Positions 22,308-41,416 of a stretch of 64,000 nucleotides of DNA are shown here, in pieces. Position 1 is the stretch's first letter; each line of letters opens with the position of its first letter. This DNA is from Allopusillimonas ginsengisoli (GTDB lineage Bacteria; Pseudomonadota; Gammaproteobacteria; Burkholderiales; Burkholderiaceae_B). The position numbers and the translations under genes were made by a program. The notes under the pieces were generated by a model that searched no databases, was not told the origin of the DNA, and saw only the letters and a list, made by a program, of their open reading frames with translations. The DNA lies in NCBI RefSeq assembly GCF_004153455.1, contig NZ_SDQE01000001.1, forward strand, positions 620,001 to 684,000. The letters run 5' to 3'.

Positions 22308-22337
22308 TTTATAGTCCTTTACGCAATAGAATCATTG

Positions 22338-22820: not shown

Positions 22821-22863
22821 GAAGCCACCTTTGATGGAAAAAAATTTGTCGAATAAATGAGGT

Positions 22864-23838
22864 TTATTTTTTCATCAAATTCAAAAACTTCTCGTCTATT
22901 TCTTCCAGCTTGTCTTTAAGCTCATCTCCATGTATAAAAACGGGATCCAGATGAGTTTTATCCAAATATCGATTTTTCCATTGCTCGCTCATTACTGCCT
23001 CTCTGATAATCTCCACCCAATACTCGCGCGCATCCTCGGATACGCCAAGTGGCAGTGCAAAACCACGGGGCTGTGACAGTACGATGTCCAAGCCAGCTTC
23101 TGTCAGTGATTGAATTTCTGGTAAAGCGGACATTCTTTCTTTGGAGCTAACCGCCAATGGCCGCAACTTACCAGCTTCGATCAAAGGAATTGCCACGGTT
23201 GGTACGGCGAACATCACATCGATATGCTTTCCCAATAAAGCCGCAACAACACCACTTTGGCCAGAAAAAGGAACAACGGCAGTTTCGATATTAAAATGTT
23301 GTCCAATTTGTTGCGCCAATAGAGCCGGACCCGCCATGATGCCTTCAGTCCCCGAAAGCATGAAGCCTGCCGCTTTTATATCGTTCAGACTCTTGATATC
23401 AGAATCCGCACGCACAGCCATGATCCAAGGCTCTTCTGCAATCATGGCAAGGGGAATAAAGTCCTTATAGCTCACAGAAGACTTATTCAGCATCGGGGTA
23501 GTGAAAAATGCAGTCGCAAAGTTGATCCATATGTATGGATTGTTTTTATGCTTGGCGGCGTACTGCATGCCCACCAGGCTGCTGCCTCCTGGGCGATTTT
23601 CTACCACAAAATTCGACTTAGTCAGTTTAAGATCAGTAATTACCGAGGCCAATGTGCGACTGATCATGTCGTTCCCTCCGCCTGCAGAGGTGGTTACGAT
23701 GATACTAACGTCACGATCAGGTTCGAACGCACTTGCACTGCTGTGAAAAACTCCTGACAAAGCACAGGATAATATAAAAAGACAGCCGAAATTGGTAGAT
23801 TTTTTTAATAAATGACAGGTTAAAAATTTGGCAATCAT
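22864..23838 (-). CDS. tctC: TctC/Bug-family receptor of the TctABC system
   Basis: The 324-residue receptor has a long N-terminal signal region (hydrophobic core at about 18-36, cut near ASAFEP). It then has VSIIVTTSAGGGNDMISRTL, where the usual P-F-x-P-G-G is replaced by T-T-S-A-G-G-G, and VVENRPGGSSLVGMQYAAKH. It binds the carboxylate ligand in the periplasm and delivers it to TctAB encoded just downstream. It is preceded by the enolase-superfamily enzyme at 24035, so the ligand is probably that enzyme's substrate or a precursor. An A/G-rich GAGGAG ribosome-binding site precedes the ATG. Confidence 0.9.
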   Translation of the reverse strand: MIAKFLTCHLLKKSTNFGCLFILSCALSGVFHSSASAFEPDRDVSIIVTTSAGGGNDMISRTLASVITDLKLTKSNFVVENRPGGSSLVGMQYAAKHKNNPYIWINFATAFFTTPMLNKSSVSYKDFIPLAMIAEEPWIMAVRADSDIKSLNDIKAAGFMLSGTEGIMAGPALLAQQIGQHFNIETAVVPFSGQSGVVAALLGKHIDVMFAVPTVAIPLIEAGKLRPLAVSSKERMSALPEIQSLTEAGLDIVLSQPRGFALPLGVSEDAREYWVEIIREAVMSEQWKNRYLDKTHLDPVFIHGDELKDKLEEIDEKFLNLMKK

Positions 23839-24034
23839 TTTCTGCTCCTCCTTTTAGAACGCATTTTTAATTATTGTCGAAATTTATTTTGGTTACTTCT
23901 TCCTTGCGACAGGAAGATCGTTTAAATATGTTTTTCCAGGCATAAATCCGATAGATATCATCAATGCCTTTTTCCTATAAACACTATTAAATAGTTGTGC
24001 AATCCGAAACTTTTTTGCGTACCGCTTAGAATAT

Positions 24035-25138
24035 TCAGACACTATATTGTTTAAGTTTGGCTTCACTCAGCGTTGTGCCCATACCGAAACCAGGCGGCAG
24101 TATCAACTTGCCTTCACTCAGGTCGATAGGAGAATCAGTCAAATCACCAGAAAGTTTGGCCGGGCCTACCATTTCCCCTACCGAATCGATTTGGGCAAAC
24201 GCACAAGCGAGCTGCATTTCTGCTGATGCTTCAATGCTTGAACACAGTCCTTGACCAAGAATAACTTTTAAATCTGCTGCTTGACATAACTCGATAATTC
24301 TACGTGCATTTATATATCCGCCGACTTTGGTGATTTTGATTTTTACGGCGTCTACCGCATCCTGCTCAATGCATCGCATAACATCCGCGACGGTAAATGC
24401 GCTTTCATCAGCTAGTATGGGAACGACTCCCATGCTTCTCAATTTTCTTAAGCCACGAAAATTAAGAGCAGAGACAGGTTGCTCAAGGTGTTCAACATTA
24501 CATTCTGCAATTCCACGAATCACCGTAACTGCATCTGGCGTCGTATATCCAGAATTGCAGTCAACCCTTAAATTGACGTTATCCCCAATAGCTTTACGCG
24601 CAGCGATCACACACGCAATGTCGTTGTGTATGTCATTTGTTCCAATTTTTATTTTTACGGTCTTATAACCTTTATCTACTAGCTCAGTAAGTTTCCCACC
24701 CAATCTTTCGGGAGTGTCAATACCGATTCCACCGGAAAGTTGTATTTGGTTTCTCACAGGCCCACCTAACATCTCAGCTATTGAAATGCCACGCTGCTTC
24801 GCCAAAAGATCATATGCCGCCGTTTCAAACGCACTCTTTACGAACGGATTTCCTATCCGGATAAACTCCATGCGCGAATGAAACTCTTCTATAGACACAA
24901 GATCAGTCCCTATAAGTGCCGGACGAAAGGTGTGCTGTGCCACGGCATACATTGAGTCGATAGTTTCATAGGTATATCCAGCTATTCCTTGATGAGCCTC
25001 CCCAATACCTACGATGCCATCGTCGCTAATCAACCTGATCACAAGACTTTCTAATGCGGTATGTACCCCGGTGGCCATGCGATAATCGCCCTTTACAGGG
25101 ATTGACACCTTAAATACCTCTATATTGCTGATTTTCAT
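24035..25138 (-). CDS. Mandelate racemase/muconate-lactonizing enzyme family protein (MLE subgroup)
   Basis: This 367-residue enolase-superfamily enzyme has a capping domain (1-125) and a barrel with catalytic Lys162/Lys164 (VKIKIG), metal ligands Asp193, Glu219 and Asp244, and a second Lys pair in VKIKITKVGG (266/268). The K-x-K...K layout defines the MLE subgroup, which includes muconate cycloisomerases, dipeptide and hydroxyproline-betaine epimerases, and cis-3-hydroxyproline dehydratases. The start at 25138 has GGAGC five bases upstream; the longer frame adds 43 unrelated residues. It is first in an operon with TctCBA, so it probably acts on the transported carboxylate. The reaction is not determined. 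Confidence 0.82.
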   Translation of the reverse strand: MKISNIEVFKVSIPVKGDYRMATGVHTALESLVIRLISDDGIVGIGEAHQGIAGYTYETIDSMYAVAQHTFRPALIGTDLVSIEEFHSRMEFIRIGNPFVKSAFETAAYDLLAKQRGISIAEMLGGPVRNQIQLSGGIGIDTPERLGGKLTELVDKGYKTVKIKIGTNDIHNDIACVIAARKAIGDNVNLRVDCNSGYTTPDAVTVIRGIAECNVEHLEQPVSALNFRGLRKLRSMGVVPILADESAFTVADVMRCIEQDAVDAVKIKITKVGGYINARRIIELCQAADLKVILGQGLCSSIEASAEMQLACAFAQIDSVGEMVGPAKLSGDLTDSPIDLSEGKLILPPGFGMGTTLSEAKLKQYSV

Positions 25139-25403
25139 TTTTGCTCCGATTGTGCAACGGTTGGGAATACGGCTAGTGTTGCAGCCGCACCATATAAAAT
25201 CAAATGCTAATACCAGATTGGTATATAACGTTAACTTATACCCATGCGAACTCTCAATTCCGCTCACTAGCGATTCTTGCTACAGAGCGATAAGGAATGA
25301 AGGCACCGTCTTGTTTGGAATACCCTTAGAGTAAATAGATTAGAGTCTTTTTGTAGAAAATAATTATTTAGGCCCGAATACGACGCAGAGACCGAATAAA
25401 CAA

Positions 25404-25431
25404 CGGCTGGTATTCATAAGAATACCAGCCG
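25404..25431 (-). terminator. Hairpin terminator after the LysR gene
   Basis: A perfect 12-bp inverted repeat (CGGCTGGTATTC and its complement) surrounds a four-base loop. On the minus strand it is followed by TTGTTTATT, so it should terminate the LysR gene ending at 25575 and insulate the 24035 operon. The remaining gap (25139-25403 and 25432-25574) holds no gene; it must contain the promoter of the 24035 operon, but I could not pick out confident -35/-10 boxes. Confidence 0.75.
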
Positions 25432-25574
25432 CATATTGTCCTGTTAGTGAGTAGTGATGGCTGAACGCATCAAGGCTCAGATCGGATTACCGAATTAACA
25501 AACTGTGGTCAAGGAATCTTAATTCGCTTAGCCAGCACATGACTCTCCATCGACAGAGTTTTCTCTTTGAGCAC

Positions 25575-26489
25575 TCATAAACCTTGAGCCTTGGAAAACT
25601 CCGCAAAACAGCGCTGAATACATGCCACTAAATCGCTGGAGAAGCGTGCCCTCGCACGACGTACTGGGTAAAGGCATGCGTATTCAAAAGGAACGACTGG
25701 CAAAAATGGCCTTACAACGACCTTTCGGTTGATGAAACGGGCTGCTGTAAACGGATCAACAAGCGATACACCCTGGTTATGAGAGACAAGCTCGCAAACT
25801 GCTTCCGAAGTTTGCGCTTCAACCAGTTTTTGTAACTCGATACCTAATCGCTCAAACATCATATCGATGTAGAGCCTACCAACAGTGCCAGAGGAAAGCG
25901 AAACAAATCGCTCTCCCTTCAAATCTTCGGCTTCAATTACCTGTCGTTCCGCGAGAGCATGAGAAGAAGGCAGAATACAAACCCCTCTTACAACACCTAG
26001 TTTTTCGATATCGTCTATTGGATACTCTATCGGCATTGCGGCCACGGCGATGTCGAACTCTTGTTCATTCACCCATTTTCTAATTTCATCACGCACGGTT
26101 ATGCCTAAGGAAATGGCGACTTTGGGAGAGCGTTTGGAAAACTCCCCTATGGCCTGAGGCAGCAAGCCATGGGCAATCGCATTGGTCCCCACCACCCGCA
26201 ACTGGCCGCTTTCTCGAGATTTCAACTCTGATAGGAACCGACACACACGATCGTAGTTTGCCATGAAGACATGTGTTTCCTGGAACAGGACTTCAGCTTC
26301 TTCAGTGGGAATAAGACGCCCCTGCCTACGGTCGAATAATTCGCAACCTGCCAGATGCTCCATTTCTCGTAACAATCGACTAATCGCCGGTTGAGACACT
26401 CCCAACTCTGTAGCCGCTTTTACCGTGCTACCCAGTAGCATAATCGCCCGGAAGGCCCGCAACTGCCTGAAACTTAATGAATGCAACAT
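25575..26489 (-). CDS. LysR-family transcriptional regulator
   Basis: This 304-residue LysR protein has a helix-turn-helix at about residues 4-62 (AATELGVSQPAISRLLREMEHLAGCELFDRRQGRLIPTEEA in two stretches) and an effector domain from about 90. The form FRQLRAFRAIMLLGSTVKAA resembles regulators of amino-acid or organic-acid catabolism. It is on the same strand as both flanking operons, with a strong terminator after it and 179 bp before it, so it is its own unit. Its target could be the TctCBA-enolase operon to its left; this is inference from proximity only. Confidence 0.85.
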   Translation of the reverse strand: MLHSLSFRQLRAFRAIMLLGSTVKAATELGVSQPAISRLLREMEHLAGCELFDRRQGRLIPTEEAEVLFQETHVFMANYDRVCRFLSELKSRESGQLRVVGTNAIAHGLLPQAIGEFSKRSPKVAISLGITVRDEIRKWVNEQEFDIAVAAMPIEYPIDDIEKLGVVRGVCILPSSHALAERQVIEAEDLKGERFVSLSSGTVGRLYIDMMFERLGIELQKLVEAQTSEAVCELVSHNQGVSLVDPFTAARFINRKVVVRPFLPVVPFEYACLYPVRRARARFSSDLVACIQRCFAEFSKAQGL

Positions 26490-26668: not shown

Positions 26669-28276
26669 TTAAGCCATGTGAGAGTACACATACTCCCTGG
26701 CCGGCACCCAGGTCTCCTTAATTGTTCTTGGCGATACCCAACGCATGAGATTCAATGGGGATCCTGCTTTGTCGTTGGTTCCGCTTCGCCGGGCACCACC
26801 AAATGGCTGCTGCCCCACGACGGCACCTGTGGGTTTGTCATTGATATAGAAGTTACCTGCTGAGAATCTTAGCCGATCCGCCGCTCGGCGCAGCGCGCTT
26901 TGATCTGTGCCAAATATAGCCCCGGTCAAAGCATAAGGACTAGTCTCATCCACCAGCGTCAGTAGTTCCTCCCAGCTTTTGTCGGCATAGACAAAAACCG
27001 ACAGGACTGGTCCAAATATTTCTTCTTGCATTGTACGGGCCTTGGCATCTGCTACTTCGATCAACGTTGGTTCAATGAAATAGCCTTTTGTATCGCAATA
27101 GCCACCTCCTGCCAGAATGGTGTCGGCTCCGGCACGCGCCTCGTCAATATACCCCGCAACTCTTGAGTAGGCTTTGCGATCGATGACTGCACCCATAAAT
27201 TGCCCAAAGTCTTCGATGTCGCCCATCTTGATTGTCGCGATATCGTCTATCAATCGCTGCTTCAGCCTTGGCCACAACGAGGCGGGCACATAAGCGCGCG
27301 ATGCAGCACTACACTTCTGGCCCTGGTATTCAAAAGCGCCCCTCAGCAACGCAGTGCTTAAGGTCTCAATCTCTGCAGAGGCATGTGCCACCACAAAGTC
27401 TTTTCCTCCTGTCTCTCCAACAAGGCGTGGGTAGTTCCGGTAGCCAGAAAGATTCCGAGCCACTTCCGTCCATAAAGCGTCAAAAACAGAAGTAGATCCC
27501 GTGAAATGCAACCCACTAAAAGACTCTGCTGACAGCACGGCACTCGACACGGAATGAGAGGGGCCTGGTACAAAATTAATTACACCAGGCGGCAGCCCTG
27601 CGGCTTGGAGCAATTCCATGATCATATAATTGCTATAAGTCGCTGTGAATGCAGGCTTCCAGATTACTGTATTGCCCATCAATGCGGGTGCGCAGGGCAA
27701 ATTCCCCCCAATTGCCGTGAAGTTGAAAGGAGTCACCGCGTACACAAACCCTTCCAAGGGGCGGTAATCCAAGGTATTGCGCATACCATTGGGCGAACTA
27801 GGTTGAATTTGTTGCAGCTCCTGCGCGAACCTCACGTTCAGGCGTAGAAAATCTATCAACTCACATGCAGAGTCAATCTCGGCTTGATGGATCGTTTTGC
27901 TTTGCCCAAGCATGGTGGCGGCATTGAGCTTCTGACGCCACGGCCCCGACAGCAATTCCGCCGCCCGTAAAAACACGGCGGCACGATCTTCCAACGACCA
28001 TGCTGCCCACTCCGTGTGCGCAGCAGTTGCGGCAGCGATGGCGGATCCTATATCCGATTCAGTAGCTTGGTGGACAGATGCCAGCTGGACGGTGTGATCG
28101 TGCGGGCAACTGAGAGGTACGCCGCGTCCCTGATAAAACCGCTTGCCTCCGATTACTAACGGGATATCGAGCTGCTGCTGCTTAAGGTCGTGCAGAGCGG
28201 CCTGCACTGAGCCTCTTTCAGGGCTTCCAGGAAGATACGAAAGTACTGGCTCGTTGAGTTGGTATAGATGATTCAT
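26669..28276 (-). CDS. Delta-1-pyrroline-5-carboxylate dehydrogenase-like aldehyde dehydrogenase
   Basis: The 535-residue NAD(P)-dependent aldehyde dehydrogenase is of the PruA/group 1 P5CDH type. It has AVTPFNFTAIGGNL at about 185, VGETGGKDFVVAHA with the general-base Glu near 290, and YQGQKCSAASR with the catalytic Cys near 322. The N-terminal extension and total length match stand-alone P5CDH. The canonical reaction is glutamate semialdehyde to glutamate, but here it is last in an operon after a Mo-oxidoreductase and an AtoE transporter. It may therefore oxidise another semialdehyde. A 15-bp spacer separates it from the transporter gene. Confidence 0.85.
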   Translation of the reverse strand: MNHLYQLNEPVLSYLPGSPERGSVQAALHDLKQQQLDIPLVIGGKRFYQGRGVPLSCPHDHTVQLASVHQATESDIGSAIAAATAAHTEWAAWSLEDRAAVFLRAAELLSGPWRQKLNAATMLGQSKTIHQAEIDSACELIDFLRLNVRFAQELQQIQPSSPNGMRNTLDYRPLEGFVYAVTPFNFTAIGGNLPCAPALMGNTVIWKPAFTATYSNYMIMELLQAAGLPPGVINFVPGPSHSVSSAVLSAESFSGLHFTGSTSVFDALWTEVARNLSGYRNYPRLVGETGGKDFVVAHASAEIETLSTALLRGAFEYQGQKCSAASRAYVPASLWPRLKQRLIDDIATIKMGDIEDFGQFMGAVIDRKAYSRVAGYIDEARAGADTILAGGGYCDTKGYFIEPTLIEVADAKARTMQEEIFGPVLSVFVYADKSWEELLTLVDETSPYALTGAIFGTDQSALRRAADRLRFSAGNFYINDKPTGAVVGQQPFGGARRSGTNDKAGSPLNLMRWVSPRTIKETWVPAREYVYSHMA

Positions 28277-28291
28277 GATATTAAAGAATAC

Positions 28292-29752
28292 TCACTTGCC
28301 AGGGATAACCGGCGGCACATAGTCGAAGGTTGCCATCAGCAGCGCACCAGCTAGGATTACGATGGGTAGATGTATAAAGAATTGCATCGCGGTATAGCCT
28401 ATAAGGTCTTTTGATCGCAGTTTCAATATGCCAAGTAAAGGCAACATCCAGAATGGATTGATGAAATTGGGCAGTGTTTCCGCAATGTTGTAAACCATAA
28501 CGGTCCAGCCCAGGTGCGCCTCAAGCTGATTCGCGGCAGTCATGATGTAAGGCGCTTCGATCACCCATTTCCCTCCAGCAGACGGGATAAAAAATCCCAA
28601 CACCGCTGAATAGATACTGATCAATATCGAGAAAACCTCTGTATTGTGGGCAAGCCCTACAAACCAGTGTGCAATGGTATCGGATAGCGTGTGATGTTCG
28701 CTGTTTACCACCTTCGTTAGCACATAACCAATTCCCCCGTAAAAAGGGAACTGCAGCAACACACCACTTACACTGGGCATCGCGCGCGCAAAGCTCTCCA
28801 AGAAGCTGCGGGGACGCCAATGCAACAGCAAGCCCAGCAAGAGAAAGACGAAGTTATAGGTGTTCAGCTGTGACAGCGTGATTAAGGGGTTGCCGCTACG
28901 GAAGGTGTTCCATAGCCAGCCTAGTGCAAGTACGACAACCACTACCGTCAGAATGGGGCTGAACTCGAAATAATCGCCGGGTCGTTGACGGTGCGCGGGA
29001 GGAACCCGATCATCGTCAAGATCAACACCCAGATCAGCAGCGGTCACAGTAGCGTCAGCAGACCTTGGCGCCGTAAAAAAGCAGACCAGCGCGGAAACTA
29101 TTGTGACCATTACTATAACGAGCGCGTTCTGCCAGGTGAGTATGGTCTCAGAGAAGCTGATCACCCCTGTGATAGGCATTAGAGAGGTTGGAATGCTACC
29201 GGGGGTAGCCTGCAGTTGCGCCGCTGAGGAGCTCATTCCCAATGTAAATCCACATCCAAGACCAAGATACCCCGCGGCGCCCGCCGCTCGATAGTCGAGC
29301 CGTAAGTCAGTACGCCTGGCCATCTCTCTTACCAACAGCCCTGAGAAAATCAAGCTAACGCCCCAATTGACCAACGAAAGCAGAATACTGAGCGTACCGA
29401 TAAACACGACAGCACCTCTAGATGTGCTGGGAACACGTGCCAGCTTCCGAAGCAGGCTGGCAATCGGCGGCGACATGGCAAGCACATAGCCTGTAATAGC
29501 TACCATGGCCATTTGCATGGTGAACGGAATAATGCTCCAGAATCCTTCACCAAACGCCTGACTGACGTCCACAGGTGAGCCACCGTGCAATACAGCTAAG
29601 ACACCTACTACGGCACAAGCAACGACAACAAAAACATAAGCATCGGGGAACCATTTTTCCGCACAAGATACGATGATTTGGGAGAGTCGCTCTATGCGTG
29701 TGGATGACGCGGGCAACCTGACGTTACTGGGCTGAAGCTGACTGGTAGACAT
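28292..29752 (-). CDS. AtoE-type short-chain fatty acid transporter
   Basis: The 486-residue inner-membrane protein has about twelve hydrophobic segments and family landmarks of AtoE/TIGR00366: FAKMP-like ARAMPSVSGVLLQFPFYGGIGYVL, FFIPSAGGKWVIEAPYIM (about 370) and NFINPFWMLPLLGIL (about 430). Members import acetoacetate or short-chain fatty acids. It sits between the Mo-fusion gene (61 bp upstream) and the P5CDH-like gene, which suggests uptake of the operon's substrate. The true substrate is unknown. Confidence 0.88.
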   Translation of the reverse strand: MSTSQLQPSNVRLPASSTRIERLSQIIVSCAEKWFPDAYVFVVVACAVVGVLAVLHGGSPVDVSQAFGEGFWSIIPFTMQMAMVAITGYVLAMSPPIASLLRKLARVPSTSRGAVVFIGTLSILLSLVNWGVSLIFSGLLVREMARRTDLRLDYRAAGAAGYLGLGCGFTLGMSSSAAQLQATPGSIPTSLMPITGVISFSETILTWQNALVIVMVTIVSALVCFFTAPRSADATVTAADLGVDLDDDRVPPAHRQRPGDYFEFSPILTVVVVVLALGWLWNTFRSGNPLITLSQLNTYNFVFLLLGLLLHWRPRSFLESFARAMPSVSGVLLQFPFYGGIGYVLTKVVNSEHHTLSDTIAHWFVGLAHNTEVFSILISIYSAVLGFFIPSAGGKWVIEAPYIMTAANQLEAHLGWTVMVYNIAETLPNFINPFWMLPLLGILKLRSKDLIGYTAMQFFIHLPIVILAGALLMATFDYVPPVIPGK

Positions 29753-29813: not shown

Positions 29814-32800
29814 TTACCGACGCAGGATCACTGTGGATAGCGGTACTGCCTGGCAGGTCAAGCATCTGTCGGGGGGACCTTCGTAGGGCGACAGATGCAC
29901 CACCTGCCCCGAGACAATCTGCATCGAACAGCTTTCGCACTGCCCCACGCGGCATCCGCTAGGCAGCGCTACGTGGAATCGCTCCCCGGCATCCAAAAGT
30001 GAACCTAGTTCGGGCCGCCATTCAAACTTTGCATCGTTTCCCTCGACTTGTATCGACTGCGGTCGTAGTGTCGAAGGGACCTTTACGTCGGCACTAAAGG
30101 CTTCCGTGAAAATATCGAAAAGCGGAATGCCGCGTCGACTCAACGCTTCTGTCGCATCCTGAAGAAACTTGGGCGCACCGCACAAATATGCCAGGGGCCG
30201 ACGTTTCAGCGTCTCGTCCTCGATCCAACCAAAGTCCAGATCGTCGCTGTTGTCAAAATCAACACCGATACGGTCAGAGGAAAGCGGTGCACGATAGACA
30301 GTAATGATTTTCACGGTGGAAATATCTTGCGCCAACTCCTTGAGTCTGGCGGCATAAGCGTGTGTACGACTATTACGACAGACATATACAAGCGTGATAT
30401 CGGGTGCACCCGCCGCGCCTTTCGAGACAGCTTGTAGATAGCCGACAAAAGGCGTGATGCCAATGCCGCCAGCCACCAAAATGATGGGTCGCCTACTGAA
30501 GGTCGGAATCGTGTACGAACCGGATGGTGGGAACAGAAATACCTGGTCTCCAGCATCTAAGCCATGCAGGTGGGCAGACATGCTGCACGCATTAGTTTGA
30601 TCTGTAACTCTGCGTCGAACGCCGATTGTGAATACCTGCGGTGCGCAATTTTGCCCCGTAAGGGAATATGCACGGCGGATATCGACACCTGCCAATGACA
30701 CCATTACATGCTGGCCCGGAAGAAAGTCTGGCAACGGTCGCTCATCGATAGGCGTAAATTCGAACTCGGCTATATCTTCTCCCAGCGAACGCTTCGAAGC
30801 GATCCGGAAAGCACGAGGCCCTGCCCAGCGACCACGGTTCATTGCGATTTCTGGGCTGATGCGGCATTGGACAGCGCGCAGGGGAACGCTGCCGCTGACA
30901 GGGTCCCTATCGGCATCACTCAGAATGCTGTTAATGTTGAATGACCCATTTCCGACGATTGGCGCGTCATCCTGCCCCAATGCCGTGCAGCCCTGCCACC
31001 ATCCAAAATCCGCGATAGCAACGTCTCGATGTAAATGTTCATCAAGATGAGCTCGCATGACAACATGGCCAGACGGCGTCGTAATGCGAACCCAATCTTC
31101 GCTCTGAATCCCAAGATGCTCGCCAAGCGCACCACTCATAGAAACCTGCGGCAACAAGGACTTTTTGCGTAGAGAAGCGACATGGCGATGAGACGAATGT
31201 ACGAACCATCCGTTCTTTGCTGTGCTAAGGAGAATGGGGAACGCCTCGCGCAGCCCGGTTGATTCCGAATCATGAGCGGGCTCAGCAAACGCAGGTATTG
31301 GAGGCTGGCCAATATCCAACAAGGCTTCAGAGTAGAGCTCAACAAACCCGCTTTCCGTCGGAAATCCCGCCGGTCGACCTGCAGCATCCCGCCGAGCGTA
31401 TTTTTCATGGCTAAAGGCTTGTGGGAAACGCATTCCACCGGGATGGGCCCGCAAGTCTGCGACCGTAATTCCCAAGGGCGCCAATTGAAAATTCCAACCC
31501 GCCTCGATATCGCCGCCAAAAAATGCGTCGCTCAACCCCAAACGCTTGGCCAGTTCGAACACGATTTCAAAATCCGCACGGGATTCGCCCAAGGGAGTTA
31601 CCATGCGCTGACGCAGTTGAACATGCTCGACTGCGTCTTGGGTTATCTCGAACCCGCACTTAAGCGCCTCGCGCTCCCAAGGGGTGTTGGCGGGAAGAAC
31701 AATGTCTGCATTCTGCGCTGTGGGGTTCATGTACATGTCTACGTGAACATGGAAGTCCAAGGCTCGCAGTGCTCGAATATTGCGCTCAGTGTCCGACTGA
31801 GACACCAGAAGATTGGAACCAAAGCTCATCAACATTTGTACCGGATAAGGCTTATGCTCCAGCACTGCAGCGCTAAAATCTCTGGCAGTGATCCATCCCA
31901 ATCGGGGCGGACCTAAAGGCAACTGCGAAATACCGAGAGCCTTGGAACGCTGCTCTTCAGAAAGCAACTCATGGTATGTATTTACCGCGCGATAAGGCGG
32001 CGCAACCGTCCAAAGATTGCCTCCTTGGCGATCACAGGCACCGCATAAAGCGTACAGCGTAGCAATGGCACGCTCGGTCTGAGTGGCATTCGAATGTTGA
32101 CCGACGCCCGTCCATGCGTGGTAGCACAATCTCGGACTATCCTGGAATAATGCGTTGAATTGCGCGATCTCTTTTGCGTCTATCCAAGTGTGTTCTGCCA
32201 CAGATGCAACATCATATGGCTCGACGGCAGACGCCAGAAGTCGAAAGACAGTCGTGTAAGAGCGTGAACGACCATGCCTATCGACAAGTGTTCCAGCCGC
32301 ATCTAATAGCACTTCGTTGGCCTGCGATGCGATGTTGGTGGTCGCACCAAATCCGCCTTGAGACAGCGCAACCAGATATGCGCCAGCGTCTTGCGTGGGC
32401 CAGATTTCATTAGCTCGCAAAAGTTTTCCACTCTCTTGGTCCACCAGAGCGGGCGCATTCGTCCAGCGACGAACAAATGCGTCATCATAACGGCGGGTGC
32501 TGATGAGATGGCGGATCGCTCCCAGCGCCAGAACACCATCCGCGCCAGGGCGGATGCGCAACCAAATATCCGCCTGCTGACCAGACCCCTCCTGCTTAGG
32601 GTCAATAACAACCACCTTGGCTCCGCGTTGTCGCGCTGTACCGATGCGGCTGGCTTGCTTCAACCATGTCCGTGCCGGGTTGTGGCCCCACAAGACAATG
32701 ACATCCGTATTTTCCAGATCCGGCACTCCAATCCCGCGGCCAAATGTCAGTGCGTGTGCATAGTCTTTATGCCAACCACACACTTCCACGGCATAGATTA

Positions 32801-33212
32801 GATTGGGGCTGCCATAGCACCGCACGAAACGCTCGACCCATTCAAAGCTATCCACCATGGGAGTACCGCTCGGTGTAGTCACGGCGAATGCGACCGATTC
32901 GGCGCCGTAGATGGCCCGCTGATCTAGCAAACGACCGGCAATCTCATCAAGTGCTTCACTCCAGGAAATCTGTTTCCATTCGCCCTGACCCCTTGCTCCT
33001 GTTCTACGCAAAGGGTGTGTCAGGCGTAAGGGACTGGCCAATAACTCTGGAGCCGCACGTCCTTTTGCACATAAAGCACCGCCCGTTGGATGACTGGGCG
33101 ATGGGGTTACCTTTACTAGCCGGCCGTCCTGAATAAGATTCAAAGAGCCGCAACGCGATCTACAGAGGGTGCAATATCCCTCCAGCAACTCTGACGGAAA
33201 TTCTCGGTCCAT
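29814..33212 (-). CDS. Molybdopterin oxidoreductase fused to FAD/NAD(P) reductase and [2Fe-2S] ferredoxin domains
   Basis: This is a single 1132-residue chain. Residues 1-770 form a DMSO-reductase-family molybdopterin enzyme: Cys14, Cys17, Cys21 and Cys48 bind a [4Fe-4S] cluster, and Cys145 (VEVCGWHKD) is a likely Mo ligand. Residues about 785-1030 are a ferredoxin-reductase-type module with R-A-Y-S-L-T (FAD) and GGIGITPF (NAD(P)). Residues about 1050-1132 are a plant-type [2Fe-2S] domain (CRVGQCESCSM, later CLTC). The build implies self-contained electron transfer between NAD(P)H and the Mo centre. No Tat signal is seen, so it is cytoplasmic. It is first in an operon with AtoE- and P5CDH-like genes and divergent from a GntR gene. 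No clear ribosome-binding site precedes the ATG. Confidence 0.88.
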   Translation of the reverse strand: MDREFPSELLEGYCTLCRSRCGSLNLIQDGRLVKVTPSPSHPTGGALCAKGRAAPELLASPLRLTHPLRRTGARGQGEWKQISWSEALDEIAGRLLDQRAIYGAESVAFAVTTPSGTPMVDSFEWVERFVRCYGSPNLIYAVEVCGWHKDYAHALTFGRGIGVPDLENTDVIVLWGHNPARTWLKQASRIGTARQRGAKVVVIDPKQEGSGQQADIWLRIRPGADGVLALGAIRHLISTRRYDDAFVRRWTNAPALVDQESGKLLRANEIWPTQDAGAYLVALSQGGFGATTNIASQANEVLLDAAGTLVDRHGRSRSYTTVFRLLASAVEPYDVASVAEHTWIDAKEIAQFNALFQDSPRLCYHAWTGVGQHSNATQTERAIATLYALCGACDRQGGNLWTVAPPYRAVNTYHELLSEEQRSKALGISQLPLGPPRLGWITARDFSAAVLEHKPYPVQMLMSFGSNLLVSQSDTERNIRALRALDFHVHVDMYMNPTAQNADIVLPANTPWEREALKCGFEITQDAVEHVQLRQRMVTPLGESRADFEIVFELAKRLGLSDAFFGGDIEAGWNFQLAPLGITVADLRAHPGGMRFPQAFSHEKYARRDAAGRPAGFPTESGFVELYSEALLDIGQPPIPAFAEPAHDSESTGLREAFPILLSTAKNGWFVHSSHRHVASLRKKSLLPQVSMSGALGEHLGIQSEDWVRITTPSGHVVMRAHLDEHLHRDVAIADFGWWQGCTALGQDDAPIVGNGSFNINSILSDADRDPVSGSVPLRAVQCRISPEIAMNRGRWAGPRAFRIASKRSLGEDIAEFEFTPIDERPLPDFLPGQHVMVSLAGVDIRRAYSLTGQNCAPQVFTIGVRRRVTDQTNACSMSAHLHGLDAGDQVFLFPPSGSYTIPTFSRRPIILVAGGIGITPFVGYLQAVSKGAAGAPDITLVYVCRNSRTHAYAARLKELAQDISTVKIITVYRAPLSSDRIGVDFDNSDDLDFGWIEDETLKRRPLAYLCGAPKFLQDATEALSRRGIPLFDIFTEAFSADVKVPSTLRPQSIQVEGNDAKFEWRPELGSLLDAGERFHVALPSGCRVGQCESCSMQIVSGQVVHLSPYEGPPDRCLTCQAVPLSTVILRR

Positions 33213-33221
33213 AATAATAAT

Positions 33222-33285
33222 GCGTGACGCGTTACTTAATTGCCGACAGTCTACTGCGTCACGCGCTACATTAAATTGGTATAAT
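33222..33285. promoter_or_regulatory. GntR gene promoter with paired operator sites
   Basis: A nine-base inverted repeat, GCGTGACGC (33222-33230) and GCGTCACGC (33256-33264), lies in the 137-bp divergent region. Around the first arm GTGACGCGTTAC (33224-33235) is itself almost palindromic. A TATAAT box (33280-33285) reads toward the GntR gene, and the second arm falls near its -35 region. This fits autoregulation by the GntR protein and control of the Mo-fusion operon. Confidence 0.5.
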
Positions 33286-33349
33286 CCCTATGATGTAACC
33301 CCCTAAGTTCCAGGCAGTTATATCGTCGCACTCACAGGAGAACGTTCCA

Positions 33350-34024
33350 TTGATCAACGCATTGCCACCGTTTGATAGCCCACTTGAGGCAAATCTTCGC
33401 TCCTCAGTGCTGCAGCGCATCCGGCTGGAGATCGTGTCAGGCAAAACGCGGCCAGGTGAAATTCTTACCGTTCCCACCTTAGCGAAGGCTTGGGGCAGCT
33501 CAACCACCCCAGTACGAGAAGCGCTGCTCGAACTCAGCAATCAAGGGCTTCTGGAACCACTACGCAATCGCGGATTTCGTGTCTGTATACCAACCGCGGA
33601 AGACTTAAAGAATCTATTCGCAATTCGTGTACAGCTGGAAGGCTATGCAATCACTTCGGTAGACAACATATCGGAAAATGCAGTGGCGGAGCTGCGGCTA
33701 CATGCACAAGAAATCGCTGACGCAGTCACCGCGCGGGATACCTTCAAATATCTAGCAGCGGACCGAGCATTTCATTACACATTAATCTCTTTGGCCGGCA
33801 ATGAACGGCTCACCAAGATGATCATGAATCTGCGTGACAACATGAGGCTATACGGCATCGAATCACCGGCAGGTATGGAACGACAAGCGTTGTCTGTAGA
33901 TGAACACTTTCAGCTGGTCGACGTAATAATTTCGGGAGACAAGCAGCGCGCTCTGAGCTTGATGAAAACTCATATCCTCGATTGGGAGCCCATATTTCTC
34001 GATGCTATCGAAGCAGATCTGTGA
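33350..34024 (+). CDS. GntR-family regulator, FadR/FCD subfamily
   Basis: The 224-residue protein has a winged helix domain (residues about 12-75; LRSSVLQRIRLEIVSGKTRPG, then AKAWGSSTTPVREALLELSNQGLLEP) and an all-helical FCD effector domain from about 85 with the D...H...H metal-ligand spacing (DRAFHYTLISLAGN). The start is TTG at 33350, with AGGAG at 33336-33340. It is divergent from the Mo-fusion operon and probably represses it until a carboxylate ligand binds. Confidence 0.87.
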   Translation: MINALPPFDSPLEANLRSSVLQRIRLEIVSGKTRPGEILTVPTLAKAWGSSTTPVREALLELSNQGLLEPLRNRGFRVCIPTAEDLKNLFAIRVQLEGYAITSVDNISENAVAELRLHAQEIADAVTARDTFKYLAADRAFHYTLISLAGNERLTKMIMNLRDNMRLYGIESPAGMERQALSVDEHFQLVDVIISGDKQRALSLMKTHILDWEPIFLDAIEADL

Positions 34025-34285: not shown

Positions 34286-35260
34286 TCAATCCAGCTTGAT
34301 GTTGCCCTTTTCGATGACCGTCGCCCATTTCTTCAGTTCGGCGTCCTGAAAGGTCGCGAGCTGCTCGGGCGAGCTCGCCATAATGTTGACGCCCAATCCT
34401 GCCATTCGCTCGATGACATCCGGCTGCTTGAAAATGTCTTGAATGGCTGAGTTCAGGTGATCGCGAATTTCGGGATCCAGCCCGGCAGGCGCAAAAACTG
34501 CCTGCCAGGAAACTACGTCATAGCCCGCCACGCCGGCTTCCTGCATCGTGGGCAGGTCGGGAAAAGCTGCTTCCCTATCGGAAGAGGTGACTGCCAGCGC
34601 CCGGACAGCGCCACTTTTAATCTGAGGACTGGCGACGATCAGGTTCTCGAAGCTAAAGGGCACTTCGCCCGCCATGACTGCCGTCAGCGCCGGACCTGCC
34701 CCCTTGTAGGGAACATGCAGCAGCTTCACATCTTCTGTCTGCGCGAACAGTTCCGCTGACAGATGCTGCGAAGTGCCCGCGCCGGCAGACGCAAAGGCCA
34801 TGGGATGCTCTGACGCGCGGATGCCCTCCAGCAGATCCTTGACACTGCGATATGAAGTCTTGGGATTGACGATCAGCACGTTGGGCGTTGTTCCCACAAG
34901 GCTTATCGGTGTGAAGTCCTTCTTTGGATCAAACCCAATATTTTTGTACAGACTGACGTTGATGGAATGTGTTGCGATCGAAGCACCGCCGATCGTGTAA
35001 CCGTCAGGCGCCGATCGGGCTACGTATTCGGTACCGATGTTGCCGCCCGCACCGGGTTTGTTCGTCACAATGACAGTCGTATCGAGAATGGAACCGAGTT
35101 TGTCGGCAACCACTCTGGCGATGATGTCCGTGCCACCGCCTGGCGAGAACGGAACGACATAGTTTATGGGCTTGTCAGTGGGCCATGCGGCCAGCGATGC
35201 TCTGCTGGCAATCAGCATGATAGATGCGACGGCAAGGCCAAACTTCATTCTTGATTTCAT
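34286..35260 (-). CDS. Bug/TctC-family periplasmic solute receptor (stand-alone)
   Basis: The 324-residue receptor has a signal peptide (residues 1-24, cut near SLAAWP), INYVVPFSPGGGTDIIARVVADKL and VTNKPGAGGNIGTEYVARSAPDGYT, all hallmarks of Bug receptors. It stands alone, without TctA/TctB. Its last 80 codons are almost duplicated at 20549-20792. Upstream (35392-35409) lies a copy of the LacI-type palindrome that also precedes the 44311 operon, so it is likely part of the LacI regulon and supplies the same pathway as a second receptor. It converges with the GntR gene across a 261-bp gap in which I see no gene. Confidence 0.87.
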   Translation of the reverse strand: MKSRMKFGLAVASIMLIASRASLAAWPTDKPINYVVPFSPGGGTDIIARVVADKLGSILDTTVIVTNKPGAGGNIGTEYVARSAPDGYTIGGASIATHSINVSLYKNIGFDPKKDFTPISLVGTTPNVLIVNPKTSYRSVKDLLEGIRASEHPMAFASAGAGTSQHLSAELFAQTEDVKLLHVPYKGAGPALTAVMAGEVPFSFENLIVASPQIKSGAVRALAVTSSDREAAFPDLPTMQEAGVAGYDVVSWQAVFAPAGLDPEIRDHLNSAIQDIFKQPDVIERMAGLGVNIMASSPEQLATFQDAELKKWATVIEKGNIKLD

Positions 35261-35305
35261 GGTTGTCTTAAATTCACATTGAACAGTTATATTTGCGTGA
35301 ACCCG

Positions 35306-35389
35306 CTAACGCGAACCCACCCCCTGATACTCACGACCATCGGCCACCAGCGTCCAGGCCGTGCGCGCCATCTTGTTGGTTCCCTCCAT
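35306..35389 (-). mobile_element. Possible IS110-type transposase C-terminal remnant
   Basis: On the minus strand a 27-codon stretch contains NKMARTAWTLVADGREY, resembling the A-N-K-x-A-R-x-A-W-x-L C-terminus of IS110-family transposases, followed by a TAG at 35306-35308. It lies between the LacI-type operator and the Bug gene. It is far too short to be functional, and the match is short, so the family call is tentative. Confidence 0.4.
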
Positions 35390-35391
35390 TG

Positions 35392-35409
35392 ATTGCAAAC
35401 GCTTGCAAA
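35392..35409. promoter_or_regulatory. LacI-type operator upstream of the stand-alone Bug gene
   Basis: This site matches the perfect palindrome at 44329-44346 in 16 of 18 positions, including the central CG typical of LacI/GalR-family sites. It lies about 130 bp before the Bug start at 35260 and just beyond the 3' end of the LacI gene, linking this receptor to the same regulator. Confidence 0.7.
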
Positions 35410-35454
35410 TTTGTCAAAACAACTGCCATACATAAGACACTGATTTCGCAAAAA

Positions 35455-36495
35455 CTAGATGGGGCGCGTTGTTGAGCGCCTTATAAGTTGGACAGGCGTC
35501 ACTACTTGCCTTGGCGTGGCATCGCCGGTTTCAAGATGCTCAAGCAATATCGATACGGTTGCCCGGGCCATGAGCTCAGAGTTCTGCTCTATTGTGGTCA
35601 GCCGATAGCCGCCCCATGCTGACTGCGGTACGTTATCGAACCCCACCACCTGAACATCTCTTGGAACTTCGTGGCCCATGTCGCGCAACGCATCGATGAC
35701 GGCAAAGGCCATGTGATCGTTAGCAACAAACAGGGCATCCGGCTTTTTGGCCAAGCTGAATAGTTCTCGTGTAGCAGCCTTAGCCGCATCAAAATCATAC
35801 TCGCCGCAAATATGCCCGAAGAGCCGTTTACGGTGCCGTGCAAGCTCCTCCTTTAAACCCTTCTCGCGGTCTTGCGTGGTGGATGAATCCTCCAGCCCCC
35901 TGACAAATGCGATACGTCGGGCGCCGCACTCGATCAAGGTCCTGGCAGCCAGACGACCACCTTCCAGATTGTCGGATGTAACCGTACTGGCCTCCTCTAC
36001 GGGCGCCAGGCGATTGAACAGTACGACCGGGATTCCGACGGCGTGGCAATGCGCAGCGAGCTGTGATGACATCGTTGTACTGGCAAGTACGATTCCATCA
36101 ACCTGATACTGGAGAATATCCAGCAGCAAGGCGTCGATGCCGTCCTCGCCTGTGCCCGTATCGCTACTTATAAAGAGCAGGACATGATACCCATGTAGCT
36201 GCAGCATTTGCGACAAACGCTCGATGACCGTTGGATAAAACTGATTGTGCAGATACGACACCACAATACCGATCATCCGTGACTTGCGGGTCGACAGCGT
36301 TCGAGCGATGGCATTGGGGCGGTAGCCAAGGGTTTTGGCTGCCTCAAGTACGATAGCTCGCGTTTTTTTCCCGACGCTCGCGCCAGGCGTAAACGTACGG
36401 CTCACCGCCGATGAACTTACTCCGGCAAGCGCCGCCACATCGGCCAGTGTCACCTGCCTGATAGCTGTCGATCCGAATTTCGCAGAATCAGTCAT
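35455..36495 (-). CDS. LacI-family transcriptional regulator
   Basis: The 346-residue repressor has an N-terminal LacI helix-turn-helix (about residues 13-60; VTLADVAALAGVSSSAVSRTF, then the hinge region GYRPNAIARTLSTRKSRMIG) and a periplasmic-binding-protein-like effector domain (about 65-340). The start at 36495 leaves a 10-bp gap to the upstream gene and begins just before the family core; a longer frame (36543) would overlap that gene. It is last in the HisD-like/IlvD operon, so it probably represses its own operon through the palindromes at 35392, 44329 and 44397. The effector is likely a sugar or sugar-acid-like ligand. Confidence 0.87.
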   Translation of the reverse strand: MTDSAKFGSTAIRQVTLADVAALAGVSSSAVSRTFTPGASVGKKTRAIVLEAAKTLGYRPNAIARTLSTRKSRMIGIVVSYLHNQFYPTVIERLSQMLQLHGYHVLLFISSDTGTGEDGIDALLLDILQYQVDGIVLASTTMSSQLAAHCHAVGIPVVLFNRLAPVEEASTVTSDNLEGGRLAARTLIECGARRIAFVRGLEDSSTTQDREKGLKEELARHRKRLFGHICGEYDFDAAKAATRELFSLAKKPDALFVANDHMAFAVIDALRDMGHEVPRDVQVVGFDNVPQSAWGGYRLTTIEQNSELMARATVSILLEHLETGDATPRQVVTPVQLIRRSTTRPI

Positions 36496-36505
36496 AAGTA
36501 GCCAT

Positions 36506-37672
36506 TCAAAGCGGTGCGACGGTTTTCCGGGCAAGCAATTCACTTGTCACATCGGAAAGCTCCGCGCAACCCAATAAAGCCATATTCCTGTCCACCTCAG
36601 TGGCAAGAATGGACAATACGCGCCCTGCGCCGGATGCGCCGGCCACCGCAGCACCATAAAGTGTAGCGCGTCCCACAAACACCAATGATGCTCCGAGCGC
36701 TATCGCTTTCAATACGTCGGTGCCGCGGCGAAATCCACCGTCTATCATGACGGGAAATCCCGTCGATACCGCATTGATGATCGATGGCAGGATGGCTAGC
36801 GGCGCTATAGTACCATCCAACTGGCGGCCTCCATGGTTTGAGACGATGATCCCGTCCGCGCCCATCTGCTCCGCCTTCTGGCCATCCTCAGGATGCATCA
36901 CGCCTTTTAGTACCAACCGGCCCTTCCATTGCTCGCGCAACCAGGCGATGTCATCCCAGCAGAGCCTATCTCTGCCGGTACGAAACCCGTGTGCCGGTTC
37001 TTGCGTAATCGGTGGGCCTATCTCTTCATAGAGGTTGGCAAAACGCGGAACCCCATTGGCGCGTAGCGTTTTCAGAAACACGCCGGCGCTCCAACGCGGG
37101 TGCAAAACGCCATCCAGCAAGAGTCGCGGCGTCATTCGAAAGGGAATAGTGAAATCCAGCCTTGCATTGTTCTCGCGATTGGCGGCCACGCAGGTATCAA
37201 TGGTTACTACCAGAACACCAATGCCTGCTGCCTCCAAACGCTCAAGAATGCGCGACATTCGAACACGATCGCCGGGAAAATAGGCCTGGTACCAGTTCTC
37301 CCGGCTTTCTTCCTGAAGTCGTTCAAGCGGAACACTGGATGATCCGCTGATAATGAACGGAACATCGGCCTCTTTCGCGGCACGGACCAGCTCCAAATCG
37401 CATTCGTGCCGCACCAGTGCCGCCAGGCCTGTGGGCGCGATACCCAGCGGCATTCTGTATCGGCGCCCCCACAGCTCTGTGGAAGTATCCCGCTTGTCCA
37501 CGACATTCAGGCCGCGAGGCATGAACCCGACGCTGTCAAACGCCTGATAATTTGCCCGCAAAGACTGCTCATCCTCCGTGCCTCCGCGAACATAGCCATA
37601 CACGCACCGGGGTAGCCGCTTTGCCGCCGCACGCTCAAAATCCGATACAGACAGAAAGCGTTCCAGTTTCAT
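36506..37672 (-). CDS. FMN-dependent 2-hydroxyacid dehydrogenase (LldD/glycolate oxidase family)
   Basis: This 388-residue FMN enzyme has the beta/alpha-barrel signatures PLGIAPTGLAALVRHECDLE near residue 78, LVLKGVMHPEDG near 240, SNHGGRQLDG with catalytic His near 268, and MIDGGFRRGTDVLKAIALGA near 300. Family members oxidise L-lactate, glycolate, mandelate or other (S)-2-hydroxyacids and pass electrons to quinone, cytochrome or oxygen. It overlaps the preceding D-2-hydroxyacid dehydrogenase gene by four bases (ATGA). In this operon it may oxidise a hydroxyacid released by the aldolase step. Confidence 0.88.
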   Translation of the reverse strand: MKLERFLSVSDFERAAAKRLPRCVYGYVRGGTEDEQSLRANYQAFDSVGFMPRGLNVVDKRDTSTELWGRRYRMPLGIAPTGLAALVRHECDLELVRAAKEADVPFIISGSSSVPLERLQEESRENWYQAYFPGDRVRMSRILERLEAAGIGVLVVTIDTCVAANRENNARLDFTIPFRMTPRLLLDGVLHPRWSAGVFLKTLRANGVPRFANLYEEIGPPITQEPAHGFRTGRDRLCWDDIAWLREQWKGRLVLKGVMHPEDGQKAEQMGADGIIVSNHGGRQLDGTIAPLAILPSIINAVSTGFPVMIDGGFRRGTDVLKAIALGASLVFVGRATLYGAAVAGASGAGRVLSILATEVDRNMALLGCAELSDVTSELLARKTVAPL

Positions 37673-38628
37673 GACGCCAGCACCTGCTTGTTCACAACGA
37701 CTGCCGGATCAAGTGAATCACGGAAGTAATCAATCACGTTCTGGGCAGCTTCCAGCGCCATCCGCCGCAGGCTCCCGTCCGTCAGAGAAGATATATGCGG
37801 CGACAGCACTACGTTGCCCAAGCCAACCAAGGGATGCTCGGCGCACAGCGGCTCGGACTCGAATACATCAAGCCCGGCGCCAAGAAGATGGCCATTCTTC
37901 AAAGCCTGTACCAGTGCGGCTTCGTCCACAACGGGCCCGCGCGATGTGTTGATCAGCACGGATCCCTGTTTCATCGCCAGTGGATTGATCGAATGACGTG
38001 TCTGCTCCGTCAATGGCAGGTGAAGGCTGACAACGTCTGCTTGAGCAAGCGCATCGGACAAATGCTCGACGCGCTGAACGCCTGACATCAAAGTAGCGCT
38101 ATCCGGCAACGCGGGATCATACGCCTGAACCTGCATATCGAATGCACGCAATCTATGCGCCGTAGCGGTACCAATGCGGCCTGCTCCCACGATGAGCGCA
38201 CGTTTACCAGCCAATTCAAACATTGGCATGGTCGCATTCGTGGACCAATTTCCCTTGCGCACCTCCAGATCAAAAAATGAAGTCCGTCGTGCCACAGCCA
38301 ATAGCAGCGACAGGGCGTGTTCAGCGACCGACACCGCATTGGCGTCTGGAGTGATTGTCAAAGGTATACGGCGTTCGTCAAGCGCCGTGACATCAACTGA
38401 GTCGTAGCCCACCCCATGTCGGGACACAACCTTGAGTTGCGTTGCGACGGCGATATCGGCGGTTCTCAGTGGCTGAAAACACAGAATCACGCCATCCGCA
38501 TTCGCCAGCCTGTCCGTGAATTGAGCGCTACAGGAGGCGTCGAGGACGTCAATGGTGAAACTTGGTTCGGCGCGTAGCAATGCTATGCCCGGCTCGGCGA
38601 TTTTCCTGGAAACAAGAATATGTGGCAT
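37669..38628 (-). CDS. NAD-dependent D-2-hydroxyacid dehydrogenase
   Basis: This 319-residue enzyme is of the SerA/PGDH-like family. The NAD-binding loop is ALIVGAGRIGTATAHRL near residue 142; the catalytic Arg is in LINTSRGPVVDEAALV (near 228) and the catalytic His in VLSPHISSLTDG (near 280). It interconverts a 2-keto acid and a D-2-hydroxyacid. With the FMN enzyme encoded just downstream, the pair could invert or fully oxidise a 2-hydroxyacid. The substrate is not evident from sequence. It starts nine bases after the dehydratase gene. Confidence 0.88.
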   Translation of the reverse strand: MPHILVSRKIAEPGIALLRAEPSFTIDVLDASCSAQFTDRLANADGVILCFQPLRTADIAVATQLKVVSRHGVGYDSVDVTALDERRIPLTITPDANAVSVAEHALSLLLAVARRTSFFDLEVRKGNWSTNATMPMFELAGKRALIVGAGRIGTATAHRLRAFDMQVQAYDPALPDSATLMSGVQRVEHLSDALAQADVVSLHLPLTEQTRHSINPLAMKQGSVLINTSRGPVVDEAALVQALKNGHLLGAGLDVFESEPLCAEHPLVGLGNVVLSPHISSLTDGSLRRMALEAAQNVIDYFRDSLDPAVVVNKQVLAS

Positions 38629-38637
38629 TGAACAATC

Positions 38638-40377: not shown

Positions 40378-40379
40378 GA

Positions 40380-41363: not shown

Positions 41364-41416
41364 ACGTTGTCTCCGTCAAATGCCTGATGCGTCAGGCCGC
41401 CATTTATGAAATCAGG

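Follow-up and report, generated by a model that had tools for sequence, protein, structure and literature searches.

A single-chain molybdenum, flavin and [2Fe-2S] oxidoreductase accompanied by pyrroline and proline enzymes: a possible pyrrole-2-carboxylate reductase

Several described enzymes share parts with a 1132-residue oxidoreductase that is encoded in a 64,000-nucleotide stretch of Allopusillimonas ginsengisoli DNA (the whole stretch is called the window here) and joins a molybdenum (Mo) catalytic part, a flavin reductase module and a [2Fe-2S] domain in one chain. Acetylene hydratase of Pelobacter acetylenicus (2E7Z) resembles residues 9-788 of this fusion in superfamily, overall fold and position of the Cys ligand, with 27% identity in a structural alignment, but it is a 727-residue chain without a fused reductase. 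The thiosulfate/polysulfide reductases PhsA/PsrA belong to the same superfamily (2VPW, Z 30.0) and, unlike the fusion, are periplasmic multi-subunit enzymes. The FAD/NAD(P) module is shared with flavohaemoglobin and PaaE-type reductases, and PaaE also has the order reductase, then [2Fe-2S]. The partner of the reductase is a haem globin in flavohaemoglobin and a non-haem oxygenase in PaaE, whereas in the fusion it is the Mo enzyme of the same chain. In the assimilatory nitrate reductase NasC, a cytoplasmic Mo enzyme that works with the reductase NasB, electrons come from NAD(P)H via flavin and iron-sulfur centres. It is similar in principle to the fusion, but its operon partners differ and the fusion scores far below the NasC cut-off.

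Two further systems share metabolites with the pathway proposed below. A monooxygenase that acts on pyrrole-2-carboxylate is said to oxygenate it, with no ring reduction seen. HudA is a decarboxylase of the same acid in which N318 is a key residue; it decarboxylates its substrate, and the available part of the report describes no ring reduction (PMC7976604). Delta1-pyrroline-2-carboxylate (P2C) is also formed and reduced to proline in the catabolism of trans-3- and cis-3-hydroxyproline by Lhp genes, where, in the accessible text, P2C arises from a dehydratase and not from a molybdenum enzyme (PMC5144071).

In this study, we found that the fusion is probably linked to pyrroline-carboxylate and proline metabolism. 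We propose, at a probability somewhat below even, that it is a cytoplasmic, self-contained Mo reductase of an imported five-membered N-heterocyclic acid, which would most likely be pyrrole-2-carboxylate.

Architecture, family and spread of the fusion

The fusion gene and its immediate neighbours were located by open reading frame (ORF) and domain searches as follows.

29814..33212, minus strand: single-chain Mo/[4Fe-4S] + FAD/NAD(P) + [2Fe-2S] oxidoreductase, 1132 residues (ORF and Pfam)
30852..33212, minus strand: catalytic part of the dimethyl sulfoxide (DMSO) reductase family, residues 1-787 (PF04879, PF00384, PF01568; [4Fe-4S] Cys14/17/21/48; candidate Mo ligand Cys145 in EVCGWHKD)
30090..30827, minus strand: FAD/NAD(P) reductase module of flavohaemoglobin type, residues 796-1041 (PF00970, PF00175; FAD motif RAYSL, 847-851)
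29817..30050, minus strand: plant-type [2Fe-2S] domain, residues 1055-1132 (PF00111; Cys1087/1092/1095, then Cys1117 or 1120)
28292..29752, minus strand: AtoE-type short-chain fatty acid transporter (SCFA_trans; PF02667, 280.7 bits)
26669..28276, minus strand: L-glutamate gamma-semialdehyde (Delta1-pyrroline-5-carboxylate, P5C) dehydrogenase (TIGR01236, 789 bits; cut-off 613.6)
33350..34024, plus strand: GntR/FCD regulator, divergent (PF07729, PF00392)

The original prediction, made from the letters of the DNA, had proposed a Mo/[4Fe-4S]-FAD-[2Fe-2S] fusion of this length without giving its strand. The ORF reads on the minus strand from 33212 to 29814, and the chain carries Molybdop_Fe4S4, Molybdopterin, Molydop_binding, FAD_binding_6, NAD_binding_1 and Fer2 in this order, all six above their curated Pfam cut-offs. 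The Mo models scored 152.9 (PF00384), 61.3 (PF01568) and 31.4 bits (PF04879), each above its cut-off.

The cluster cysteines and the likely Mo ligand named in that prediction were also borne out by conservation. We aligned 62 fused sequences, including that of the window and leaving out those of loci L057 and L104 (L numbers denote individual loci). Cys14, Cys17, Cys21, Cys48, Lys50, Glu143, Cys145, Lys149 and Asp150 were invariant in all 62, and Trp147 and His148 were kept in 60. E-x-C-x-W-H-K-D is therefore a family signature around the likely metal ligand Cys145. Twelve unfused relatives keep its Cys, Trp, His and Asp throughout, its Lys in 11 and its Glu in 9. The FAD motif R847-x-Y849-S850 was present in 62, 62 and 61 of the 62 fused sequences at its three positions, and the cysteines of the [2Fe-2S] domain were conserved in 61 or 62. 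Cys145 aligns with the position of Cys141 of acetylene hydratase, which we take to be the metal ligand of that enzyme. In acetylene hydratase, the second cluster Cys is followed by Asp13, presumably catalytic; the window protein has Arg18 in its place, and 59 of the 62 fused sequences have Arg.

An AlphaFold2 model of the whole chain had a mean pLDDT of 79.8 and a pTM of 0.76. With this model, acetylene hydratase was the best VIA-align match to residues 9-788 (Z 32.9, rmsd 2.9, 679 aligned). For residues 797-1039, the best structural match was 4eh1, a flavohaemoglobin reductase (Z 29.6, rmsd 2.0, 230 aligned). DMSO reductase superfamily folds were among the structural matches at Z 25-33. Perchlorate reductase headed the Foldseek ranking, with acetylene hydratase in fourth place, and ethylbenzene dehydrogenase was also a structural relative; residues 2-908 are the part of the chain that the whole-chain fold search tests best. 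By sequence, acetylene hydratase was the highest-scoring relative of solved structure (188.5 bits). By domains and fold, the window protein can be assigned firmly to the DMSO reductase (MopB) superfamily. As a member it would bind Mo or W with two pyranopterins and carry an N-terminal [4Fe-4S] cluster, for which the four cysteines are conserved. Four specific identities within this superfamily were rejected. The protein scored 209.8 bits against formate dehydrogenase alpha (TIGR01591, cut-off 666.25), 143.3 against the assimilatory nitrate reductase NasC (NF047855, cut-off 1100) and 218.6 against the thiosulfate reductase PhsA (NF012032, cut-off 694). Identity with acetylene hydratase was set aside because of Arg18.

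Relatives of the fusion are scattered. At E <= 1e-60, they were found in 20 of 268 genomes and 16 of 43 genera of the window's family. Elsewhere they are rare. At E <= 1e-150, they were found in 10 of 300 genomes of its order, all but the window's genome matching over the Mo part only, and in 3 of 274 and 5 of 398 genomes of its class and phylum; each of these genome counts includes the window's own genome. Three further orders gave 10 of 249, 8 of 199 and 1 of 194 genomes at E <= 1e-180, the first two drawing on overlapping genomes. A scan of genome contigs gave 29 loci with fusion relatives, and a plasmid collection gave 26 records in which one place covered at least 80% of the protein. For comparison, 81 loci and the window were pooled and 3 duplicates were removed, which left 79 loci; eight regions fetched after the count (three fused, L117-L119, and five unfused) lie outside this set.

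The alignment spanned all three modules at 64 of the 79 loci. At 13 loci, the Mo protein was separate and unfused, at about 780 residues, and 2 loci (L060, L111) were broken. Pfam searches of 24 fused proteins found the three Mo models, NAD_binding_1 and Fer2 in all 24, and FAD_binding_6 (E <= 0.001) in 19. The original prediction had allowed that the fusion might be an assembly error. Since it is found at 64 loci in many genera and on plasmids, this explanation does not hold, and the split relatives are no sign of misassembly because all 13 lie outside the fused clade in the tree. Three of the 64 fused copies (L057, L104, L106) are interrupted within the called ORF, and together with the two broken copies they suggest recurrent loss of the fusion gene.

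Several plasmid copies have settings of their own. A separate reductase adjoins the unfused Mo protein in two Variovorax plasmid records (L112, L113), beside a GntR gene. This cluster is convergent with genes, shared by both records, that are annotated as dihydroorotase, Zn-dependent hydrolase or carbamoylase, dihydroorotate dehydrogenase and phosphoribosyltransferase, a set suggestive of pyrimidine or orotate degradation. On a Sphingobium yanoikuyae plasmid (L066), the fused copy lies between IS6100 copies near an annotated nitric-oxide reductase, with no annotated proline gene nearby. Fused copies also occur near metal or transposon genes on large Klebsiella and Enterobacter plasmids (L063, L067, L114), and other Klebsiella plasmid records match without the first 241 residues or more.

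Pyrroline and proline enzymes beside the fusion

The fusion had been predicted to be co-transcribed with an AtoE-type transporter and a P5C dehydrogenase-like gene. The gaps are 61 nt from the fusion to AtoE and 15 nt from AtoE to the dehydrogenase, all on the minus strand. Since the three genes are so closely spaced, they are probably co-transcribed. The dehydrogenase is above the TIGR01236 cut-off, and the transporter is below that of TIGR00366 (276.3 vs 575.75 bits).

Gene neighbourhoods were compared within the same-strand run at the 64 fused loci, with ORFs called using conservation weighting. An AtoE-type transporter was present in the run at 34 loci (a single cluster, joined at >= 28% identity), and upstream ABC genes were present at 7. 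At 18 of the 64 loci, the run held at least one pyrroline or proline enzyme. An ornithine cyclodeaminase (OCD)-family gene was found at 14 loci, a P5C dehydrogenase at 4 (the window, L033, L036, L084), and ProC at 1 (L052, downstream). The run of L084 holds a P5C dehydrogenase and an OCD-family P2C reductase together. A second ProC, at L039, lies behind the divergent GntR gene and is outside the 18. These results indicate that the P5C dehydrogenase of the window operon is one of three pyrroline/proline enzyme kinds that accompany the fusion across lineages and is not an odd companion.

The partners were then scored with curated models. Nine of the 14 OCD-family partners were scored, leaving out L074, L075, L077, L078 and L080. 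All nine were above the cut-off of NF004793 (389.7-437.4 bits vs 322), the NCBIfam model of the bifunctional Delta1-pyrroline-2-carboxylate/Delta1-piperideine-2-carboxylate reductase. By these scores, the OCD-family label is misleading and the scored partners are predicted P2C reductases. The ProC proteins of L052 and L039, from two lineages, were both above the TIGR00112 cut-off, and the P5C dehydrogenases of the window, L033, L036 and L084 were all above that of TIGR01236. Ornithine or N-hydroxyornithine was rejected as a substrate or product, since the partner reductases score as P2C reductases.

The OCD trait is not one inherited block, because it requires at least 10 changes on the tree. 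By our own estimate, chance would put well under one OCD neighbour in 64 loci, given one OCD-family gene in a 4.5-Mb genome. Two OCD-family genes, at L042 and L117, were left uncounted. They carry a GGDCPGK stretch, which we take to mark true ornithine cyclodeaminases, and by eye they have amidinotransferase- and Lrp-like neighbours; they probably serve arginine catabolism. We also did not count a possible P2C reductase of Ldh_2-like type that precedes the unfused copy at L103, as its operon looks by eye like hydroxyacid metabolism.

In Rhodococcus opacus 1CP, the run reads fusion, P2C reductase, AtoE. From 2.6 kb past the run, on the other strand, lie an annotated proline dehydrogenase and pruA, followed by an NAD-glutamate dehydrogenase. 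The pruA product is above its cut-off (827.3 bits), and the proline dehydrogenase is below that of the best NCBIfam model (211.9 vs 500). In the window's genome, a PF02423 search found one OCD-family gene, outside the window, which is an LhpI-type P2C reductase (421.4 bits, cut-off 400). This genome also has four Ldh_2 genes and a Pro_dh domain within a 1292-codon open frame, which we read as PutA-like.

Proposed reaction and alternatives

Since a transporter, a Mo enzyme and a consumer of pyrroline-carboxylate go together, the simplest interpretation is a direct conversion of an imported acid to a pyrroline-carboxylate by the Mo enzyme. P2C reductase, ProC and P5C dehydrogenase recur as partners across lineages, which therefore argues for a pyrroline-carboxylate product and favours a reductase. 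The original prediction had offered a hydroxylase, a dehydrogenase or a reductase, NAD(P)-linked and acting on a small organic acid. It was right in kind, and the partner enzymes favour the last of its three options. Pyrrole-2-carboxylate is two electrons more oxidised than pyrroline-carboxylate, and as a hydrophobic monocarboxylate it is plausibly a substrate of an AtoE-type carrier. The built-in flavohaemoglobin/PaaE-type NAD(P)H module fits electron delivery to the Mo site. More tentatively still than the reductase itself, a reductive dearomatisation of pyrrole-2-carboxylate can be suggested, opening an oxygen-independent route from pyrrole to proline. Reduction of pyroglutamate was rejected as energetically unlikely on general knowledge.

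In the proposed mechanism, AtoE, or an ABC transporter in other lineages, would import the anion. Electrons would pass from NAD(P)H to FAD, the C-terminal [2Fe-2S] centre, the N-terminal [4Fe-4S] cluster and a Mo-bis(pterin) site near Cys145. The Mo site would transfer two electrons, together with two protons, to the ring to give P2C, or P5C if the other ring double bond were reduced. L-proline would then be formed by ProC or by a P2C reductase, whose gene may lie in the operon or, as for the window, elsewhere in the genome, and proline dehydrogenase or PutA and P5C dehydrogenase would convert the proline to glutamate. The GntR protein would turn the operon on with the substrate. The alternation between P2C reductase and P5C dehydrogenase or ProC could reflect this regiochemistry, or the latter enzymes could act one step after proline.

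Two Xanthobacter loci offer a further lead toward the pyrrole acid. At L047, the same strand carries genes for a regulator, UbiX and UbiD, the last of which begins 2.4 kb downstream of the fusion; at L049, UbiD lies 1.4 kb after the fusion and UbiX was not called. Both UbiD proteins keep an EENHT stretch whose Asn corresponds to N318 of HudA. The two are 92% identical and count once.

A number of observations weigh against this proposal. No pyrroline enzyme was found in the run at 46 of the 64 fused loci, two of which (L044, L045) have less than 3 kb downstream, nor at the later-fetched L117-L119. The 64 loci are not independent, since they include near-identical pairs such as L063/L097 and L034/L035, and the Sphingobium, Klebsiella and Enterobacter plasmid copies sit among unrelated genes. 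The partner enzymes point to different products, P5C in the case of P5C dehydrogenase and ProC and P2C in the case of P2C reductase; either the product depends on the lineage or some enzymes act one step later. The best-scoring structure for the Xanthobacter UbiD was 6da6, which we take to be TtnD, and not HudA (440.3 vs 426.8 bits); 6da6 has Thr at the N318 position. This lead comes from a single lineage and is a hint. P2C reductases also take piperideine-2-carboxylate, and that gene alone would allow a six-membered ring; because of this, the case for a five-membered ring depends on the presence of P5C dehydrogenase, ProC and proline dehydrogenase. In the available part of one report, ProC oxidises 3,4-dehydroproline quasi-irreversibly, which its authors attribute to aromatisation (PMC12899673). 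The pyrrole ring thus strongly resists being reduced to this isomer, and its reduction would need the pull of the following reductase. The pyrrole-2-carboxylate reductase activity itself is predicted from gene context.

Other substrates or reactions would explain part of the same evidence. The Mo site might deoxygenate an N-oxygenated or hydroxylated proline-like acid, such as the cyclic nitrone of pyrroline-2-carboxylate, to a pyrroline-carboxylate. The partner enzymes fit such an acid equally well, the DMSO reductase superfamily most often catalyses oxygen-atom transfer, and the first rank of perchlorate reductase in Foldseek is in line with it. However, a short-chain fatty acid transporter and a HudA-like UbiD suit the pyrrole acid better, and we know of no abundant natural substrate of the N-oxygenated or hydroxylated kind; we consider this explanation unlikely. 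An oxidative reaction appears less probable again. Here the Mo site would hydroxylate C5 of pyrrole-2-carboxylate with water and pass electrons to NAD(P)+, and the OCD-family reductase would make 5-oxoproline from the cyclic imine. The structural relative ethylbenzene dehydrogenase hydroxylates with water, and the known aerobic route of pyrrole-2-carboxylate reportedly starts with a flavin-dependent oxygenase, which we counted in favour of oxidation. Such a route would need no P5C dehydrogenase, ProC or proline dehydrogenase, yet these enzymes are found.

It is very improbable that the fusion is an assimilatory nitrate reductase driven by NAD(P)H, or a formate dehydrogenase to which a reductase has been joined. 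One plasmid record annotates a relative of the fusion as nasC, some unfused relatives lie by eye near apparent nitrate transporters and sensor genes, and L066 is beside an annotated nitric-oxide reductase gene. But the NasC and formate dehydrogenase scores given above are far below their cut-offs, the window operon has no nitrate or formate gene, and the partner enzymes belong to proline metabolism. We give just as little weight to a non-redox hydratase or transhydroxylase resembling acetylene hydratase, in which the reductase module would merely keep the metal reduced. Acetylene hydratase is the best solved relative both by sequence and in VIA-align, but its presumed catalytic Asp is the Arg of almost all fused sequences. 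Reduction of pyrrole-2-carboxylate remains the reading that we prefer.

Regulation, surrounding genes and significance

A GntR regulator had been expected to control the operon, and one is present, divergent from the fusion gene across a gap of 137 nt. Two putative operators were marked in this gap.

33224..33235, minus strand: candidate GntR operator GTAACGCGTCAC
33258..33269, minus strand: candidate GntR operator GTAGCGCGTGAC

The near-palindromic motif GTARYGCRYNAC (at most one mismatch) occurred within 120 bp before the fusion in 16 of 16 loci of the window's clade with a divergent GntR gene, a set that includes the broken L060, and in none of the 3 such loci outside the clade. Single-base shuffles averaged at most 0.03 matches. 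The motif was read from the same loci in which it was counted, and the count is thus descriptive. The whole genome has two perfect GTARCGCGTSACGC sites, both in the gap 33213-33349 and both sources of the pattern. With one mismatch, this 14-base form occurred at 13 further places (15 in all), against 39 for a backwards control. In the window alone, 2 matches to the 12-base form are not significant, as 13 of 100 shuffles have as many. The motif pattern suggests a dedicated local GntR regulator of the operon. A promoter scan was no better than chance (10 found, 10.4 expected), and a terminator scan was barely above it (16 found vs 11.2 expected, sd 3.6).

The next gene after the P5C dehydrogenase, 179 nt further on, encodes a LysR regulator and probably opens a separate transcription unit. 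This region downstream of the operon (20793-26489, minus strand) holds the LysR gene, an enolase-superfamily protein and what looks by eye like a set of tripartite tricarboxylate transporter genes. The enolase-superfamily protein is near the muconate cycloisomerase and cis-3-hydroxyproline dehydratase models, all below cut-off, and this region may have a connection with pyrroline-carboxylate. On the other side (34286-42136), further apparent TctC-like binding proteins, an apparent LacI regulator, an alpha-hydroxyacid dehydrogenase, a 2-hydroxyacid dehydrogenase, a dehydratase and an RraA-like gene were seen by eye.

The original prediction knew of no characterised pathway with this gene set, and this agrees with our results. 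The scores argue against a known nitrate or formate enzyme, and no characterised protein of such an architecture appeared in a limited literature search. The search found no description of this fusion, no molybdopterin enzyme tied to pyrroline-2-carboxylate and no paper pairing a molybdopterin oxidoreductase with ornithine cyclodeaminase, although it covered few subscription journals and its negative outcome carries little weight. Papers that mention both pyrrole-2-carboxylate and molybdenum were, judged by title, two reviews and a spectroscopy study.

According to the available part of one report, microbes are known to metabolise pyrrole-2-carboxylate, but this metabolism is poorly understood (PMC12899673). 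The routes that we found named use an oxygenase and a decarboxylase. Most annotated plasmid records name the protein merely 'molybdopterin-dependent oxidoreductase', and our proposal, if true, would account for this architecture. With NAD(P)H coupled to a Mo site in one chain, the enzyme would also be an attractive biocatalyst for making pyrrolines. If true, Mo-dependent ring reduction feeding proline catabolism would be new both as a catabolic pathway and as a reaction within the DMSO reductase superfamily, one that is scattered over distant bacteria and partly plasmid-borne.

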